From NCBI GenBank assembly GCA_947624745.1, contig CANQLR010000016.1, positions 1-54,277 of the forward strand: DNA of 54,277 nt. Reading direction: 5' to 3'. This DNA is from an uncultured Clostridia bacterium. Its GTDB lineage: Bacteria > Bacillota > Clostridia > Oscillospirales > Ruminococcaceae. Of this stretch, positions 10,639 through 36,392 are shown one piece after another. Both the position numbers and the translations under genes were made by a program. The notes under the pieces are model-generated. The model had not been told where the DNA came from, ran no database searches, and saw only the letters and a list, made by a program, of their open reading frames with translations. Numbering within the stretch: position 1 is the stretch's first letter; each line of letters opens with the position of its first letter.

Positions 10639-10864
10639 GGCGAAGCCCGTGGCGGCAATTTCATTGCCGCCATGCCCGCCGAGCAAGCTCGGCGGGCGGG
10701 TGCGCGCTCCGCGCGCACCCCGGGCTTCGCTCCGCACCCCCTGCCTCACCGCAGCCAACCCGCAGCCCCCGCGCGGCGAAGCCCAGTGAGCCTGCTTCGC
10801 AGTCTCACCCGCCACACTTCGTGTGCGGCGGCGAGCCGCCCTTCGGGCGCCTCGGGGCTTCGCC
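10639..10864. repeat. Three-hairpin repeat, tandem pair (units 10639-10730 and 10775-10864)
   Basis: Unit 1 has the outer arm GGCGAAGCCCG and its complement CGGGCTTCGC. These enclose three perfect hairpins: TGGCGGCAAT with loop TTC, GCCCGCCGAGC with loop AA, and GGTGCGCGC with loop TCC. Unit 2 has GGCGAAGCCC/GGGCTTCGCC around three different hairpins. A 44-bp spacer containing CTGCCTCACCGC separates them. There is no T-run, so it is not a terminator. The gene-free stretch 10590-11424 consists of this array and further repeat blocks. Confidence 0.85.
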
Positions 10865-11008
10865 CCAACCCCTGCGTTACGTCGTACCTAATCGTTTTGC
10901 TCCAACTTTAATGCAGAGTTTGCCTCGCTCCCCACTCTGCAAATAAGAAAAAGTCGCCCCACTTACAGCGCACCCCTTTCATTAACTGCTTACCCTACCC
11001 TTTCTTTG

Positions 11009-16028: not shown

Positions 16029-16105
16029 CTACCCCCTCTGTATTTCGCGCAAAATCACAGTCATGCAGCAGCCCCCTCCCGGTGGGAGGGGGTGTTCTTG
16101 CACCC

Positions 16106-16334
16106 GGGCAAAGCCCCATGCGCGGAGCTGCGCTTCGCGCGGCCGGGGAGGCTCCGCCTCCCGGCTCGCCGGAAACGAAGTGGCCGGCGGGGGCTTTGCC
16201 CGCCCGCACCCTCTGCCTCACCGCAGGAAAGTGCAGAGCCCGCGCGGCGAAGCCCCGGTCGGCAGCTTCGCTGCCGACCCTGCGCACTCCGTGCGCAGGA
16301 GGCGCCCACTCCGTGGGCGCCTCGGGGCTTCGCC
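16106..16334. repeat. Three-hairpin repeat, tandem pair (units 16106-16201 and 16246-16334)
   Basis: Unit 1 carries the variant arm GGGCAAAGCCCC with the matching GGGGCTTTGCCC. Both arms changed together relative to the usual GCGAAGC/GCTTCGC. Unit 2 has the standard arms around GGTCGGCAGC (loop TTC), CTGCGCAC (loop TCC) and GGCGCCCAC (loop TCC), all perfect hairpins. The 44-bp spacer again has CTGCCTCACCGC. Confidence 0.85.
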
Positions 16335-18680: not shown

Positions 18681-18722
18681 GGGGCGAAGCCCCAACATTC
18701 GCAGAGCGAATGTTGTCCGCCG
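18681..18722. repeat. ACATTCG hairpin repeat, copy 1 (reversed)
   Basis: GGGGCGAAGCCCC followed by AACATTCGC-AGA-GCGAATGTT and GTCCGCCG. Forward copies are at 22141-22180 and 33893-33932. All three keep the nine-base stem and the attached GGGCTTCGCC but differ in the loop (AGA reversed, TCG, TTC). Confidence 0.75.
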
Positions 18723-19000: not shown

Positions 19001-19219
19001 GGCAAAGCCCCGGCTTGTCGCTTCGCTCCGCGCGGTCGGGAGGCTTCGCCTCCCGGCCCGCCGTCTGCTCCGCAGCCGGCGGGGGCTTTGCCCCGCCCCT
19101 GCCCACCGCCTCTCGGTGCAGCCCCCTCGTGGCGAAGCCCCTTGGCGGCAGCTTCTCTGCCGCCCTGCGCACTTCGTGCGCAGTCGGCGCGCGCTCCGCG
19201 CGCGCCTCGGGGCTTCGCC
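19001..19219. repeat. Three-hairpin repeat, tandem pair (units 19001-19092 and 19131-19219)
   Basis: Unit 1 has the paired variant arms GGCAAAGCCCC and GGGGCTTTGCC. Unit 2 has GGCGAAGCCCC/GGGGCTTCGCC around TGGCGGCAG, CTGCGCAC (loop TTC) and GGCGCGCGC (loop TCC). The spacer is shorter (38 bp) and its CTGCCTCACCGC is changed to CTGCCCACCGC. The surrounding 18,572-19,530 has no credible gene. Confidence 0.85.
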
Positions 19220-20771: not shown

Positions 20772-20863
20772 GGCGAAGCCCCTGCGCGGAGCTTCGCTCC
20801 GCGCGGCTGTGGACCTGCGGTCCACGGCCCACCGGCCATTTCATGGCCGGTGGGGGCTTCGCC
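20772..20863. repeat. Three-hairpin repeat, single unit
   Basis: GGCGAAGCCCC (20772-20782) pairs with GGGGCTTCGCC (20853-20863). Inside are GCGCGGAGC (loop TTC), GTGGACC (loop TGC) and CACCGGCCAT (loop TTC), each perfect. This is the clearest isolated example. The stretch 20,610-21,060 has no supported gene. Confidence 0.88.
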
Positions 20864-21114: not shown

Positions 21115-21696
21115 TTACTCCTTCCCCCTGAACAGCTGCTTTGTCTGCGGCAGCTGGTAGAGGATCACCGCGACAACGAGCGTCGCGACGAGCTCGACGC
21201 CCATATACACGCCGTTATAGACGATGCTGTAGAGCCACTCGTTCTCGGTATAAAACGCGTCCCAGATGTTGCCGACCGAGTGCCAGACCGCCGCGCCGCT
21301 GATGACGTGGCAGACATAGCGAAGCACTATCGCGAGGGTGGTGCCGCCGACCATAGCGCCGAGGCTCTTGTTCCCGAAAACGCCGGAAAGCCCGAGCACG
21401 GTGAAGGCGAGTATGTAGTCAAACAGAATGCAGACGACAAGCATCACGCCGGTGAGCCCCCAGCCGAAAAGCCCGTCGATAACGCCCTGAAGGAACTGAA
21501 TGAGCGAGTAGACGAACGATGCGATGAGCCCCATTTTCACGCCGCGGCGAAGCCCGAAAATAATTATCGGGAGCATCGAGAGCAGCGTCACCGAGCCTCC
21601 CCACGGGAACTGCACGAGCTTGATGAAGCTCAGGACTGTGGCGAGAGCGACCATCACGGCGCCCTCGACGAGGGCAAGAAGTTTCTGATTTTTCAT
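21115..21696 (-). CDS. thiT: Thiamine-specific ECF transporter S component ThiT
   Basis: 193 residues from ATG 21696, with AAAGGA upstream; the longer frame to 21783 has no ribosome binding site and would enter the riboswitch. It has six helices. The family pattern is visible in VMVALATVLSFIKLVQFPWGGSVTLLSMLPI near the N-terminus (the L1 loop region) and in the C-terminal half LRYVCHVISGAAVW...WLYSIVYNGVYM with the aromatic and Asn/His residues that line the thiamine pocket. It binds thiamine and uses the shared EcfA1-EcfA2-EcfT energizing module, which is encoded at 38649-41184. Transcription is under a TPP riboswitch directly upstream. Confidence 0.93.
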   Translation of the reverse strand: MKNQKLLALVEGAVMVALATVLSFIKLVQFPWGGSVTLLSMLPIIIFGLRRGVKMGLIASFVYSLIQFLQGVIDGLFGWGLTGVMLVVCILFDYILAFTVLGLSGVFGNKSLGAMVGGTTLAIVLRYVCHVISGAAVWHSVGNIWDAFYTENEWLYSIVYNGVYMGVELVATLVVAVILYQLPQTKQLFRGKE

Positions 21697-21786
21697 GGTA
21701 TAACCATCCTTTCCAAATTGAGGCAAAAAATAATGCCCCGAAATGACGTCATTCCTGAAGGCAAAAATCAACATATAAAGCAAAAG

Positions 21787-21868
21787 CTCCCTACGCCGGT
21801 ATTAACCGTATCAGGTTATAGGGTCAGAGCTGCATGCTCAATCTCAACCCGTGCACGGGTCCCCCTGT
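21787..21868 (-). ncRNA. TPP riboswitch (THI element)
   Basis: On the minus strand GGGGGACCCGTGCACGGG is followed by TTGAGAT (the CUGAGA element), then CTGACCCT, ACCTGAT, and GGTTAATACCGGCGTAGGGA. These are the signature pieces of the thiamine pyrophosphate aptamer in the right order. It ends about 90 bases before thiT. Binding of TPP is expected to lower thiT expression. Confidence 0.95.
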
Positions 21869-21881
21869 TTTGACAAAAGCT

Positions 21882-22140: not shown

Positions 22141-22180
22141 GGCGGACAACATTCGCTCGGCGAATGTTGGGGCTTCGCCC
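22141..22180. repeat. ACATTCG hairpin repeat, copy 2
   Basis: GGCGGACA, ACATTCGC-TCG-GCGAATGT, TGGGGCTTCGCCC. Compare 18681-18722 and 33893-33932. Confidence 0.75.
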
Positions 22181-22289
22181 GTTCGGTGCCTCTACCGCAA
22201 TTTGCATAGAACTCCAACTTTCGTGCCTCTACTTGCATGTGCTGACTTGCACTTTCCTGCTTCACCGCTACAAAGCGCAGACCCCGCGC

Positions 22290-22378
22290 GGCGAAGCCCC
22301 TGTGAGCCTTCGGCTCACGTTCGGCCACGCAAGCGTGGCCGAACAGCCGCTCGCTCCGCGAGCGGCCGGGGCTTCGCC
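22290..22378. repeat. Three-hairpin repeat, single unit
   Basis: GGCGAAGCCCC and GGGGCTTCGCC enclose TGTGAGCC (loop TTC), TTCGGCCACGC (loop AA) and GCCGCTCGC (loop TCC). The same three hairpins recur, inverted, in the unit at 33316-33404. There the second stem reads TTCTGCCACGC with a compensating change in its partner strand. A spacer-like CTGCTTCACCGC precedes it. Confidence 0.88.
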
Positions 22379-31654: not shown

Positions 31655-33226
31655 ATGAAATATTTAAAAAGGATAATTATTATGTTACTTTCAGCAGCAG
31701 TTATGACAGCATCGGCATCATGCGGCGCAAAGCCCCGCAGCTTAAGCTTTTCGGCGGAGGTCGCCGAGTCTCGGGACCTCGGTCTTTCGGTGGGGGATAA
31801 GCTCACAGAGGCATATAAGGGAATGGAGGAGAACAACCCCGTTTCCTCGGACATATTCTTTGCCGACCCCACCGCGGTAGAGTACGAGGGAAGGCTTTAT
31901 ATCTACGGAACGAACGACTCGCAGGAGTTTAACGCCAAGGGCGGCTACGGCTCGAACGGATACGGCTCCATAGGCACGCTCGTTTGCTACTCAACGGAGG
32001 ATATGTCAAATTTCCGCTATGAGGGAACGATCCCCGTCACCGAGATAGCGACATGGGCGGGCTGCTCGTGGGCACCGTCGATAGTCTCCCGCGAGGAGTC
32101 GGACGGAAAGACGCATTTCTATCTTTACTTTGCAAATTCGGGCGCGAACGTCGGCGTTCTGACCTCGACCTCGCCCGTGGGCCCTTGGAAGGACCCGGTC
32201 GGCGGGCCTCTCGTATATAACGAAATGCCGCAGCTTAAGGACGATCCCGTTTCATGGTGCTTCGACCCCGGAGCCTGCATCGACGACAACGGCGTGGGGT
32301 GGATAGCCATCGGCGGAGGCGACCCCGCTCACCCGGACGAAAACGGAATGAGGACCGGAAACTGCCGCCTTGCAAAGCTCGGCAAGGACATGATCTCAAT
32401 CGACGGCGACTTCTGCAAGGTGCCGACATACTTCCACTTCGAGGCGAATGAGCTCAACTTTATCGGCGGGAAGTACGTCCTGACCTACTGCTCGAACTAC
32501 GCCGACAGGAGCATGTTCCCGATAACCCTCGGCAAGGAACCGCAGACCTGCTCGATGTGCTATATGACCTCGGACGACCCCTTAAACCCCGACAGCTGGG
32601 TGTGGGGCGGAGAGTATCTCACCAACCCGAATCAGCACGGGTATCCCTTCTCGAACAACCACTCGCACCTGCAGAAGTTTAAGGACAAATATTACCTGCT
32701 CTACCAGAACGTCTCGCTTTTGGAGAATATGAACAAGCTTTCCGCGGCGGACGGGTTCCGCTCGATCGGGATAGACTACTGCGAGGTCGACGAGGAAAAC
32801 GCGGTGATAAGCCCGTCGAAGATGTCCGATGAGGGCGTTGAGCAGATCTCGAAGCCGGACGCCATGGCGATGCAGGAGGCCGAGACGGCGCATGTCGCGG
32901 CGGGCGTGACCTACTATTACAACGAGGACATAGCCTCGGTTATCGTCACCGGCATCGGAAACGGCGACTGGATAGGCCTGACCGACGTCGACTTCGGCGG
33001 CGGCGCGAACACCTTTGCCGCGCAGGTGAGGGGCAAGGGGATCGTCGAGATCCGCCTTGACAGCCTTGAATCGGAGGCGGTCGGCTCGGTGCAGTTCGAC
33101 ACCGGCGACGATTTCGCGGTCATCAAGGGCGCGCTCCCGAAAAATATCTCCGGCACGCACGATTTGTACCTTGTGTTCGGCGGAAGCTTCGCGTTCGATA
33201 AGTGGCAGTTCGCGTATGAGGAGTAA
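31655..33226 (+). CDS. GH43 family glycosidase lipoprotein with C-terminal CBM6-like domain
   Basis: 523 residues from ATG 31655 (AAAGGAG at 31640); the longer frame to 31532 crosses the promoter. The lipobox is ASASC at Cys23. The five-bladed propeller shows the GH43 carboxylates: an Asp in FFADPTAV, an Asp in WCFDPGACIDDNG, and the acid Glu in FHFEANELNF. From about residue 395 a beta-sandwich of the CBM6 type begins (WIGLTDVDFGGGANTFAAQV, SFAFDKWQF). It probably removes arabinose or xylose units from plant polysaccharide at the cell surface. It is monocistronic, with a terminator at 33250. Confidence 0.9.
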   Translation: MKYLKRIIIMLLSAAVMTASASCGAKPRSLSFSAEVAESRDLGLSVGDKLTEAYKGMEENNPVSSDIFFADPTAVEYEGRLYIYGTNDSQEFNAKGGYGSNGYGSIGTLVCYSTEDMSNFRYEGTIPVTEIATWAGCSWAPSIVSREESDGKTHFYLYFANSGANVGVLTSTSPVGPWKDPVGGPLVYNEMPQLKDDPVSWCFDPGACIDDNGVGWIAIGGGDPAHPDENGMRTGNCRLAKLGKDMISIDGDFCKVPTYFHFEANELNFIGGKYVLTYCSNYADRSMFPITLGKEPQTCSMCYMTSDDPLNPDSWVWGGEYLTNPNQHGYPFSNNHSHLQKFKDKYYLLYQNVSLLENMNKLSAADGFRSIGIDYCEVDEENAVISPSKMSDEGVEQISKPDAMAMQEAETAHVAAGVTYYYNEDIASVIVTGIGNGDWIGLTDVDFGGGANTFAAQVRGKGIVEIRLDSLESEAVGSVQFDTGDDFAVIKGALPKNISGTHDLYLVFGGSFAFDKWQFAYEE

Positions 33227-33249
33227 ATGTAAAACAATTTAAGCATTAG

Positions 33250-33273
33250 GCCGTCCGGAAGGGCGGCTTTTTT
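33250..33273 (+). terminator. Terminator of the GH43 gene
   Basis: GCCGTCC-GGAA-GGGCGGC (one G-T pair) followed by TTTTTT. Confidence 0.85.
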
Positions 33274-33315
33274 GCGGGGGGTGAGGGGGTTGGTTGTGGG
33301 TGGAGAGGGGCAGGG

Positions 33316-33535
33316 GGCGAAGCCCCAGCCGCTCGCGAAGCGAGCGGCTGTTCTGCCACGCTTGCGTGGCAGAACGTGAGCCGAAGGCTCACAGGGGCTT
33401 CGCCGCGCGGGGTCTGCACGGTTGGAGCGGTGAGGCAGGGGAGGGCGAAGCCCGAGGCGCCCGCGAAGCGGGCGCCAAAGGCCGCGCTCCGCGCGGCCTT
33501 TACGGCGGCAGCGGAGCTGCCGCCCGGGCTTCGCC
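33316..33535. repeat. Three-hairpin repeat, tandem pair, inverted (units 33316-33404 and 33444-33535)
   Basis: Unit 1 holds AGCCGCTCGC (loop GAA), GTTCTGCCACGC (loop TT) and GTGAGCC (loop GAA), the mirror of the unit at 22290. Unit 2 has arms GGCGAAGCCCG/CGGGCTTCGCC around GGCGCCCGC, AGGCCGCGC and GGCGGCAGC stems. The spacer and the downstream flank carry the reversed GCGGTGAGGCAG motif. Confidence 0.88.
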
Positions 33536-33604
33536 GCGCGGGGTCTGCGCGTTTGCTGCGGTGAGGCAGTATGCGCTGGAGCGAACCAGTCGCTACGGCG
33601 GGGT

Positions 33605-33655
33605 CGCTGCGCAACGGAAACTAAGGTACGAGTCAGAAGTCGATTGGCCGTTGCG
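33605..33655. repeat. GCAACG...CGTTGC repeat, reversed partial copy
   Basis: CGCTGCGCAACGG, ACTAAGGTACGAGTCAGAAG and TCGATTGGCCGTTGCG match, in reverse, the segment at 11046-11100 and 16430-16484. Confidence 0.75.
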
Positions 33656-33689
33656 CTCCCCTCCCCACCGGGGAGGGGCAGGGGAGGGG

Positions 33690-33732
33690 GCTTGAGATAA
33701 CATGAGCTCGCTCGCGAGCGAATACCTTATGA
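33690..33732. repeat. AAGGTATTCGCT repeat, reversed, diverged copy
   Basis: Reversed AAGGTATTCGCTCGCGAGCG and GAGCTCATGTTATCTCAAGC; compare 15994-16028 and 18886-18932. The stretch 33,274-34,080 contains only repeats. Confidence 0.65.
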
Positions 33733-33892
33733 CAGCAAATGCAGGGCTATAGCGAAACCGGAAAAGGGGCAGGGAGCAAAGGCGAAGCCCTAATCGCGCC
33801 ATTCGGCGCGATTCCCGCCGATGTACTGCTTTCAGACCTTTGCAAATGCCGTATTTCCTGCATTTCTTAAAGACAATACTGATCTTTCCGTC

Positions 33893-33932
33893 GGCGGACA
33901 ACATTCGCTTCGCGAATGTTGGGGCTTCGCCC
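33893..33932. repeat. ACATTCG hairpin repeat, copy 3
   Basis: GGCGGACA, ACATTCGC-TTC-GCGAATGT, TGGGGCTTCGCCCC. Confidence 0.75.
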
Positions 33933-33955
33933 CCCGCATTCAGCTCGCACCCCGC

Positions 33956-34050
33956 GGCGAAGCCCCGGTACGCCTGCTTCGCAGGCGTACCGCCATCCGC
34001 GCAAGCGCGTCCGGCGCGGCGGCAGCTCCGCTGCCGCCCGGGGCTTCGCC
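33956..34050. repeat. Three-hairpin repeat, single unit next to the ruvC promoter
   Basis: GGCGAAGCCCC (33956-33966) and GGGGCTTCGCC (34040-34050) enclose GGTACGCCTGC (loop TTC), an imperfect CGCGC stem (loop AA) and GGCGGCAGC (loop TCC). It ends 30 bases before the ruvC -35. Confidence 0.85.
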
Positions 34051-34080
34051 CTGCACCCCCCTCTTTTCTTCCCCAAGGTC

Positions 34081-34109
34081 TTGATTATTACAAAAAAGTG
34101 TGCTATAAT
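34081..34109 (+). promoter_or_regulatory. Promoter TTGATT-17-TATAAT of the ruvCAB operon
   Basis: TTGATT 34081-34086 and TATAAT 34104-34109 with TG one base before the -10; spacer 17 bp. Confidence 0.85.
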
Positions 34110-34133
34110 ATAGTGATTATATTGGAGGAGTGT

Positions 34134-34688
34134 GTGATATTGCGGATATTGGGGATCGACCCGGGGTATGCGACCGTCGGGTTCGGGATACTTGATTACG
34201 ACGGCAGGTGCTTTTCCGTCATCACGTTCGGGGCGATTACCACCGCTCCCGAGAACGATTTTCCCGAGAGGCTCATGACCATTCACCGCGACATGAGCGA
34301 CCTCATCGGGATCTATTCGCCCGAGGCGATGTCGGTCGAGAAGCTGTTTTTCAACACGAACCACACCACCGCCATCGACGTGGCGCAGGCAAGGGGAGTC
34401 ATACTTCTGGCGGCGCAGCAGCTCGGCCTGAAAATTTACGAATACACCCCGCTCCAGGTCAAGGGCTCGGTCGTGGGCTACGGGAGGGCCGAAAAGCGGC
34501 AGGTCCAGGAGATGGTCCGCACCATCTTAAATCTTAAGGAGGTCCCGAAGCCTGATGACACCGCCGACGCGCTCGCCCTCGCGATAACCCACGGGCACTA
34601 TTCCGGCTCGGGGATTTTCGAGGAATACTCCCGCACGGCATACCGCAGCGGCGACTATCAGAAGTACAGAAACGGGCCGAAGGGCTGA
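34134..34688 (+). CDS. ruvC: Holliday junction endonuclease RuvC
   Basis: 184 residues. The acidic metal residues are seen in ILGIDPG (residues 6-12), VEKLFF and PDDTADALALAI. The start is GTG 34134, five bases after GGAGG; TTG 34140 is an alternative. The frame extends upstream into repeats, but that part lies before the promoter. RuvC dimers cut four-way junctions after RuvAB branch migration. ruvA follows after 23 bp. Confidence 0.95.
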   Translation: MILRILGIDPGYATVGFGILDYDGRCFSVITFGAITTAPENDFPERLMTIHRDMSDLIGIYSPEAMSVEKLFFNTNHTTAIDVAQARGVILLAAQQLGLKIYEYTPLQVKGSVVGYGRAEKRQVQEMVRTILNLKEVPKPDDTADALALAITHGHYSGSGIFEEYSRTAYRSGDYQKYRNGPKG

Positions 34689-34711
34689 CATAAACGCTTA
34701 AGGAGATTAAC

Positions 34712-35320
34712 ATGATATACAGTCTGACAGGAAAACTTGTGAAGATCACCCCCGAGCTTGCCGTCGTGAACGTCGGCGGGGTGGGGTACGGCTGCAAGAC
34801 CACCGCCACCACCGCGGGGCAGCTCGCCGGAAAGGACACAGTCACCCTTTATACATACCTTGCCGTGCGTGAGGACGCGATCGAGCTCTTCGGGTTCGCC
34901 GACGAGGCCGAGCTCGAATGCTTCCGCCTTTTAACGACGGTGAGCGGCGTCGGCTCGAAATACGCGCTCGCGATACTTTCAAGCTTAACGCCCGACCGGG
35001 TTGCGCTGGCCATTGCCTCGCAGGACGTCAAGGAGTTCACGAAGATAAAGGGCGTCGGGGCGAAGATCGCGCAGAGAATAGTTATGGAGCTTAAGGATAA
35101 GATAGCGGGGGACTACTCCTATCTTTCCTCGCAGGCGGCGGATATTTCGGGAATCGCAAGCCCGTCCTCCAACGTTTCGGACGCTTTGCAGGCGCTTGTG
35201 ATGCTCGGCTACTCGCAGACCGACGCGGCGGCCTGCCTTTCAAAGCTTGACGGAAGCCTCGGGGCGGACGAACTGATCAAAAAAGCTCTTCGTGAGCTTT
35301 CGGGAAGAAAATTCGAGTGA
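34712..35320 (+). CDS. ruvA: Holliday junction DNA helicase subunit RuvA
   Basis: 202 residues. Domain I is an OB-fold (MIYSLTGKLVKITPELAVVN). Helix-hairpin-helix motifs follow (LLTTVSGVGSKYALAIL and FTKIKGVGAKIAQRIV), with domain III at the C-terminus (ALVMLGYSQTDAAACL), which binds RuvB. AAGGAGA precedes the ATG. RuvA tetramers hold the four-way junction open and load RuvB. Confidence 0.96.
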   Translation: MIYSLTGKLVKITPELAVVNVGGVGYGCKTTATTAGQLAGKDTVTLYTYLAVREDAIELFGFADEAELECFRLLTTVSGVGSKYALAILSSLTPDRVALAIASQDVKEFTKIKGVGAKIAQRIVMELKDKIAGDYSYLSSQAADISGIASPSSNVSDALQALVMLGYSQTDAAACLSKLDGSLGADELIKKALRELSGRKFE

Positions 35321-35330
35321 GGTGATATAA

Positions 35331-36392
35331 GTGATCGAGACAGGCGAATTTGATTTTGAAAACAGGATAGTCGCGCCGCAGGTCATCAAAGACGACGACG
35401 GCGACCTTGACTACTCGCTTCGGCCGAAAACCCTTTCGGAATACATCGGTCAGGACAAGGTCAAGGAGAACATGAGAATTTATATCGAGGCCGCGAAAAA
35501 GCGCGGGGAGGCGCTCGACCACGTTCTGCTCTACGGGCCTCCGGGGCTCGGAAAGACCACCCTTTCAAACATTATCGCGCACGAAATGGGGGTAAATATC
35601 CGGGTGACTTCCGGCCCCGCGATCGAAAAGACGGGCGACCTTGCGGCGCTCCTGACGAGCCTTCAGGCGGGCGACGTGCTCTTTATCGACGAGATCCACC
35701 GCCTAAGCCGCGCCATCGAGGAGATCTTATACCCCGCGCTTGAGGATTTCGCGATAGATTTCGTCATCGGAAACGGCCCGGCGGCGCGCTCGATAAGAAT
35801 TGATTTGCAAAGGTTCACCCTGATAGGCGCGACCACCCGCTCGGGGCAGCTCTCGGCGCCTTTGCGCGACAGGTTCGGGATAATCCAGAGGCTCGAACTC
35901 TACTCGCCCGAAGATTTGACCGAGATAATCACCCGTTCGGCGGCGATATTGGGAGTCGCGATAGACAGGGAGGCCGCGGTCGAGATGGCCTCGCGGAGCA
36001 GGGGAACCCCGAGGATCGCGAACAGATTCTTGAAGCGCGTCCGCGACTACGCCGACGTGATGTCGGACGGGCGGATAACGAAGGATATCGCGAAGATCGC
36101 GCTCGATCGAATGGAGGTCGACCCGTTGGGGCTCGATTCTCTCGACAAGAGAATGTTAAGCATGATAATTAACGGCTACGGCGGAGGGCCGGTCGGGCTC
36201 GAAACGCTTGCCTCGGCGATAGGCGAGGAGGCTGTCACGCTTGAGGACGTTTGCGAACCGTTTTTGATGCAGCTCGGCTTTTTGGCGAGGACGCCGAGGG
36301 GCAGATGCGCGACCGACCTCGCTTACCGGCACCTCGGCATAAAAAAGCCGTCGGACGGAAACGGCGCGCAGACCACCCTTTTTGACAAATAA
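35331..36392 (+). CDS. ruvB: Holliday junction DNA helicase ATPase RuvB
   Basis: 353 residues from GTG 35331 (GAGGTGA upstream, ten bases after ruvA). Walker A is GPPGLGKTT, Walker B is LFIDEIHRL, sensor 1 is GATTRSG, the arginine finger lies in LRDRFGI, and the winged-helix end includes [13 protein letters not shown] and [15 protein letters not shown]. The hexamer pumps DNA through the RuvA complex. The operon order ruvC-ruvA-ruvB is complete. Confidence 0.97.

Follow-up and report, generated by a model that had tools for sequence, protein, structure and literature searches.

Extragenic palindromic repeats with a four-way plan in one genus of Ruminococcaceae

The REP, BIME and REPIN sequences of bacteria are, in the parts of the two sources cited here, abundant extragenic palindromes that occur in clusters or mosaic arrays, have lineage-specific sequences and short loops, and are predicted to fold as single-stranded DNA (PMC3116915, PMC3733652). 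Each consists of one hairpin or of two inverted REPs making a hairpin. For REPINs, an alternative "clover" fold has been drawn as a form that RAYT might recognise (PMC3116915, in the part cited). Repeats with GTAG/CGTC have been named in other phyla, and the terms Firmicutes, Clostridi- and Ruminococc- are absent from the main text of the source concerned (PMC3733652).

The repeats analysed here, which we call cross units, share the traits listed above with REP/BIME/REPIN sequences and differ from them in plan, as three hairpins are enclosed in an outer stem. They are mostly 87-98 nt long, or about 150 nt (class B), their arms vary widely within one genome, they carry no GTAG/CGTC tag, and no intact Y1 gene was found in this genome. 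Like MITEs as outlined in the cited part of PMC10969869, they are short, non-coding and intergenic with outer inverted repeats, but they show no target-site duplication, their internal sequence is not conserved and no cognate transposase is known. A third likeness, consisting of paired multi-base changes and inverted loops, is to template-switch hairpins, which the cited parts of the literature describe for RNA genes and coding sequence (PMC8794818, PMC8604942); unlike these, cross units occur in high copy number, follow a four-way plan and can have the whole three-arm body reversed. Because the REP tag, the hairpin plan and the transposase were each tested for and not found, we rate the cross units as a new form of the known extragenic palindromic repeats, outside the named families, with REP/BIME/REPIN as the closest kind. 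An earlier note, made from the sequence alone, had known of no described family with this plan, and none appeared among the matches listed from Rfam or from a literature search (openly licensed papers, titles and abstract openings). At the gathering score, Rfam recognised only a TPP riboswitch and tRNA in the whole window, neither of them a unit, and between 33200 and 34100, with E allowed up to 10, there were twelve matches (E 0.24-9.3), all far below the gathering score. A known RNA family was rejected since no unit matches Rfam at the gathering score.

The window is the whole 54,277-nt stretch analysed, positions 1 to 54,277 of contig CANQLR010000016.1 (assembly GCA_947624745.1), from an uncultured Clostridia bacterium of the Ruminococcaceae. 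All eleven units of the earlier note are present in the sequence at the coordinates it gave. A twelfth, which it had overlooked, lies at 33781-33931 and has the outer stem of the others with a middle arm of ~83 nt. The features are listed with the evidence for each in brackets.

10639-10730, plus strand: class A cross unit (fold, model match)
10731-10774, plus strand: linker (CTGCCTCACCGCAG..GCAG..CCGCGC) into the next unit (repeat comparison)
10775-10864, plus strand: class A cross unit (fold, model match)
16106-16201, plus strand: class A cross unit, type 1, with outer stem GGGCAAAGCCCC/GGGGCTTTGCCC (fold, model match)
16202-16245, plus strand: linker (repeat comparison)
16246-16334, plus strand: class A cross unit, type 2 (fold, model match)
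19001-19092, plus strand: class A cross unit, type 1-like, with decayed first arm (fold, model match)
19093-19130, plus strand: linker (repeat comparison)
19131-19219, plus strand: class A cross unit, type 2-like (fold, model match)
20772-20863, plus strand: class A cross unit, type 1 (fold, model match)
22180-22289, plus strand: linker of ~110 nt from a class B-like copy to the unit at 22290 (repeat comparison)
22290-22378, plus strand: class A cross unit (fold, model match)
33316-33404, minus strand: class A cross unit of the same type as 22290-22378, on the opposite strand (fold, model match)
33405-33443, minus strand: linker (repeat comparison)
33444-33535, minus strand: class A cross unit, body reversed relative to the linker when compared with four copies of the same type (alignment)
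33781-33931, plus strand: class B cross unit with middle arm of ~83 nt (alignment with other class B copies)
33956-34050, plus strand: class A cross unit just upstream of ruvC (fold, model match, gene calls)

The outer stem with three hairpins that had been described for every unit was recovered by RNAfold in ten of the eleven, the exception being 19001-19092 with its decayed first arm. When folded as DNA, each of the eleven beats 200 of 200 dinucleotide shuffles (z -4.4 to -11.5), and the weakest value, -4.4, again belongs to 19001-19092. Scanning the window under strict structural criteria yielded 8 units, against 0 in every one of 5 shuffled windows. All eleven are matched by R1, a covariance model built from seven type-1 units (alignment A2); the unit at 33781-33931 is not among the R1 matches at E 0.01, yet it aligns with 17 other class B copies.

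Outer-stem ends without an intact unit, at 18683, 21546 and 22171, are possibly remnants; the last is the right outer-stem end (22171-22179) of the class B-like copy beside the ~110-nt linker. A gene for a ThiT-type thiamine transporter (21115-21783, minus strand) has the TPP riboswitch (21771-21876, minus strand) at its 5' end, and the two are placed between two cross units. Directly downstream of the unit at 33956 are the Holliday-junction genes ruvC, ruvA and ruvB (34098-36392), an adjacency that is probably a coincidence, given how many other gene contexts units are found in.

In the 2.57-Mb draft genome from which the window comes (the source genome), the pattern GGCGAAGCCC-N60-85-GGGCTTCGCC has 147 copies, and the same pattern read backwards has 0. 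As claimed, none lies in a gene: 0 of 65 units, from the window and 20 stretches picked for holding units, overlap genes called by our own codon-usage model, which is not an annotation and marks 70.5% of bases as coding. Gene calls by longest ORF, which gave 31 overlaps with units, were judged to be spurious ORFs through GC-rich palindromes and were replaced by the codon model. Units are present in 8 of the 17 divergent gaps, in 4 of the 15 convergent ones and in 17 of the 95 codirectional ones, and are therefore not confined to gene ends. The reported lack of a T-run also holds: with both strands considered, 4 of 139 units have TTTT in the 12 nt downstream. On this count and on the units in divergent gaps, an intrinsic terminator was rejected.

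Conserved linkers, either ~40 or ~110 nt long, connect units into arrays of the form B-linker-A or A-linker-A. The 29 type-1 bodies lie in several different flanks, and their likeness stops at the outer stem. No target-site duplication was found at the borders of 139 units: 96 have no direct repeat, 39 have one of 1 nt and 4 have one of 2-3 nt. Of the suggestion that the units form a mobile palindromic family, the repeat family is well supported and mobility only indirectly so.

The common plan is one outer stem (GGCGAAGCC..GGCTTCGCC), 8-13 bp long, which encloses three hairpins in 117 of 138 paired ends. The sample from the source genome has 113 left outer-stem ends. A right end to pair with exists for 101 of them, and 85 of the resulting pairs enclose exactly three arms. 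The others have one arm (5 pairs), two arms (3) or four to eight arms (8), and the 7- and 8-arm cases are probably two neighbouring units joined. Three arms were also found in 15 of 15 distinct pairs in genome G018 and in 17 of 22 in other species. Lengths in the source genome are mostly 87-98 nt for class A and 149-160 nt for class B, and class A-like units of other species span 73 to 112 nt. Most arms are paired fully to the base (309 of 365 in the source genome, where 56 are not; 174 of 185 in other species).

Among the triloops of these arms, 255 of 295 in the source genome and 128 of 154 in other species fit GNA or its complement TNC, and a C-G pair closes 232 and 126 of them, respectively. 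As controls, stems of at least 8 bp outside units in the same stretches have GNA/TNC in 26 of 53 triloops, and such stems in RuvA loci have it in 9 of 32 after 23 runs of N were dropped. The first of these controls shows the GNA enrichment to be partly general to the hairpins of this genome. DNA mini-hairpins with a GNA loop on a G-C stem are described as unusually stable, GCGAAGC being the type case (PMC4686876, in the part cited). The outer stem itself includes GCGAAGC.

The earlier note held that many intergenic copies with covarying pairs in all four stems would support its claim. This is what class A shows; the outer stem of class B is almost invariant and hence uninformative. Among type-1 units (27 of 29 copies, leaving out 16107-16200 of the window, that is, the unit at 16106-16201 with its arm insertion, and L099:2357-2447), 97.4% of pair cells are standard and both sides have changed in 14 of 41 pairs, a count reached by 0 of 500 shuffles. 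These changes fall in all four stems (1, 2, 4 and 7). When partners were slid by 1-3 columns, 40.5-44.7% were paired, a control in which both the type-1 and the class B structure are favoured by being derived from the very sequences counted. In class B (18 copies), 98.4% are paired and both sides have changed in 17 of 36 pairs, none of them in the outer stem. Four of five covariation measures exceed all 500 shuffles. Further pair types are no higher than in shuffles, being reached by 270 (type 1) and 235 (class B) of 500. Alignment A1, which mixed two unit types and misaligned them, was replaced by A2, and A3, in which most units are present on both strands, did not enter the counts.

The description of the hairpins as exchangeable is upheld by an arm ending in CGGCAGC (last seven bases compared), which occurs with at least 10 partner arms. 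Between 10775-10864 and L095:2875-2968, arm 1 is identical, arm 2 is one base apart and arm 3 is different. The short arms 1 and 3 of class B come in discrete versions and realise 8 of 9 possible combinations (17 of 18 rows classable, by reading).

Loops and bodies also change their sense between copies. For pairs of units that share two stems, the loops in the source genome are the same in 65, one base apart in 46, exact reverse complements in 10 and otherwise different in 26; the corresponding numbers in other species are 12, 4, 4 and 7, and the comparisons share copies and are not independent. A copy between phoU and phoB is found in the same place in six species and is absent from G016; five of the six have TTC as its first loop, and G028 has GAA. 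The PhoU of the source genome shares 95-97% identity with that of five species of the genus (L115-L120) whose ruvCA DNA is only ~70-73% like its own, which suggests recent sharing of the locus or strong constraint.

Three genomes that are 84-86% alike at ruvCA (G003, G005 and G011) have one locus in common, with outer stems GGCGAAGCC, GGCAAAGCC and GGCGGAGCC, respectively, each with a matching partner. All three keep the second arm there; G011 has another arm in first place, and each has a third arm of its own. At a second locus, G005 and G011 are collinear in both flanks, but alignment of the three-arm body scores 34 when one copy is reversed (53 of 67 identical) and 12 when the order is left as it is (44 of 69). 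In both genomes the best-kept arm has a GAA loop when read on the same strand, and the reversal therefore needs an extra flip of that loop. In the window, the body at 33444, oriented by its linker, fits better reversed against the four copies of its type (scores 41-49 vs 20-32), and the two pairs compared among those four are in the same order. A second reversed body is seen in 16246 against L113:1965 (43 vs 11) and a weaker one in L109:2622 (26 vs 13); body order is kept in L110:2179 and L006:1501.

The pattern occurs in 15 of the 31 genus genomes, and 14 of the 30 other than the source carry 2 to 98 copies. It is absent from 88 genomes of other genera and 390 other genomes of the class (overlapping samples), a search in which the fixed outer-stem letters would let relatives with another outer stem escape. 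Within the genus, the covariance model recovers 14 of 31 genomes and misses G007, which the pattern finds. Over 197 genomes of the family, with at most 21 candidates scored per genome, it found only 3 genus members, a weak negative at that depth. In 77 RuvA loci it gave one match, a spurious one (L047, E 0.07); four of these loci (L018, L019, L020 and L073) correspond to genus genomes G022, G015, G028 and G010, and these four are thus no outgroup. Across 15 species the outer-stem sequence is near-constant (the search pattern itself demands it), and the arms are largely different between species except at the phoU copy. In the longer of the ruvCA alignments, even the nearest genomes compared are only about 70-73% alike to the source genome, and the orthologous copies examined are old ones. 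That related species keep the cross with largely different arm letters suggests that shape, not sequence, is preserved. In a viral collection, four stretches match the pattern, three of them without three arms; the fourth, L171:2617-2719 of a viral contig, has the outer stem and three weak, imperfect branches and may be a distant relative. Viral spread was rejected on these matches.

Taken together, we lean towards regarding the cross units as genus-restricted extragenic palindromic DNA repeats in which the conserved entity is the fold, a four-way junction of an outer stem and three short hairpins. The cross would form in single-stranded or supercoiled DNA, for example on the replicating strand, and palindrome-mediated template switching would keep its arms paired while flipping loops and bodies. 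As described, a single step of such switching can flip loops and change several paired bases together (PMC8794818, in the part cited). A putative structure-specific protein, of the host or of the element, could recognise the junction and tolerate almost any arm sequence, which would be why three arms are kept and copies spread. The fixed four-way geometry fits a site for such a junction-binding protein. Set in modular arrays of class A, class B and linkers, the units behave like REP/BIME-type repeats that lack the known REP machinery. Covariation is usually taken as proof of functional RNA; here it is joined to strand-flipping loops, reversed bodies and very stable DNA-type loops, a combination that makes the family well suited to testing whether a shape can be conserved through DNA folding and template switching. 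Its three-arm plan raises the question of what reads a four-way junction in living cells, and since copy counts in this one genus range from 0 to 147, looking for the partner gene is feasible.

Some observations count against this reading. Covariation alone would be expected of RNA as well, and single-base loop differences outnumber exact flips in the source genome (46 vs 10). The main rival is a structured RNA, in which the cross is selected in transcripts as a UTR stabiliser, an attenuator or a small RNA scaffold, and paired changes serve to maintain the fold of the RNA. The strong covariation in type 1 and class B and the presence of the phoU-phoB copy in six species would suit it, and TNC loops resemble the UNCG loops of RNA. 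We nevertheless hold it to be unlikely, since the model matches both strands of most units, the sense of loops and bodies differs between copies, units occupy nearly half of the divergent gaps, TTTT follows few of them, and Rfam yields only sub-threshold matches in 33200-34100 and no unit at the gathering score. Somewhat less probable still is a passive origin, in which GC-rich palindromes grow and stay paired by template switching without function or mobiliser. Loop inversions with multi-base paired changes are the described footprint of that process (PMC8794818, in the part cited), and loop flips and body reversal are both seen among the cross units. What it does not predict is exactly three arms in most pairs, the occurrence of almost the same type-1 body in different flanks, or the near-constancy of the outer stem in 15 species (which the search pattern itself demanded). 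Random palindrome growth alone was rejected as leaving the three arms unexplained. Template switching fails to explain the three arms or the bodies shared between flanks, and for this reason a recognised four-way DNA element is favoured.

We regard as very improbable a REPIN-like non-autonomous element moved by a RAYT/IS200-type Y1 transposase, even though the units are high-copy, extragenic and palindromic, lie in mosaic arrays and recall the "clover" fold that REPIN authors draw for RAYT recognition (PMC3116915, in the part cited). Full-length, stop-free Y1 reading frames do occur in G004, G017 and G018. The source draft genome, searched with the PF01797 profile, has no intact Y1/RAYT transposase and only a broken Y1 (IS200-type) piece with in-frame stops (L016 / G000:C14:2928-3259), and carriers such as G020, G003, G005, G010 and G028, also draft genomes searched with PF01797 only, have no match. 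Y1 presence does not track copy number, and a requirement for Y1/RAYT is not supported. A GTAG/CGTC tag lies within 8 nt of an end in only 5 of 139 source-genome units, leaving 134 without one, and in 3 of 63 other units. Loss of SbcCD as a general reason for tolerance of the palindromes was rejected, since SbcD is commoner in carriers (over the cut-off in 9 of 15) than in non-carriers (2 of 16); the source genome, with the most copies of all, has only a sub-cut-off SbcD match.

Other short repeats accompany the cross units. A second one, starting TTTGCCTCGCTC, lies downstream of cross units at 10919, 11005, 16388, 22432 and 22519 (plus strand), and several of its copies run on to a hairpin (TTTGCCTCGCTCaCCGCTCGGCAAA). 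A third, the hairpin repeat CCCCCTCCCGGYGGGAGGGGG, starts at 16072 and 18969 in the window, upstream of type-1 units, and occurs also in L003, L008 and L107; it is found near a conserved ~60-nt motif (TATTCGCT..CTCATGCTATTTTAAGCCCC). A ~60-nt motif, a class B unit, a ~110-nt linker and a further unit make up composite arrays at L005:1241-1594 and L003:1759-2110 and in L008 and L097. The middle arm of class B has a partly conserved, AT-rich core.
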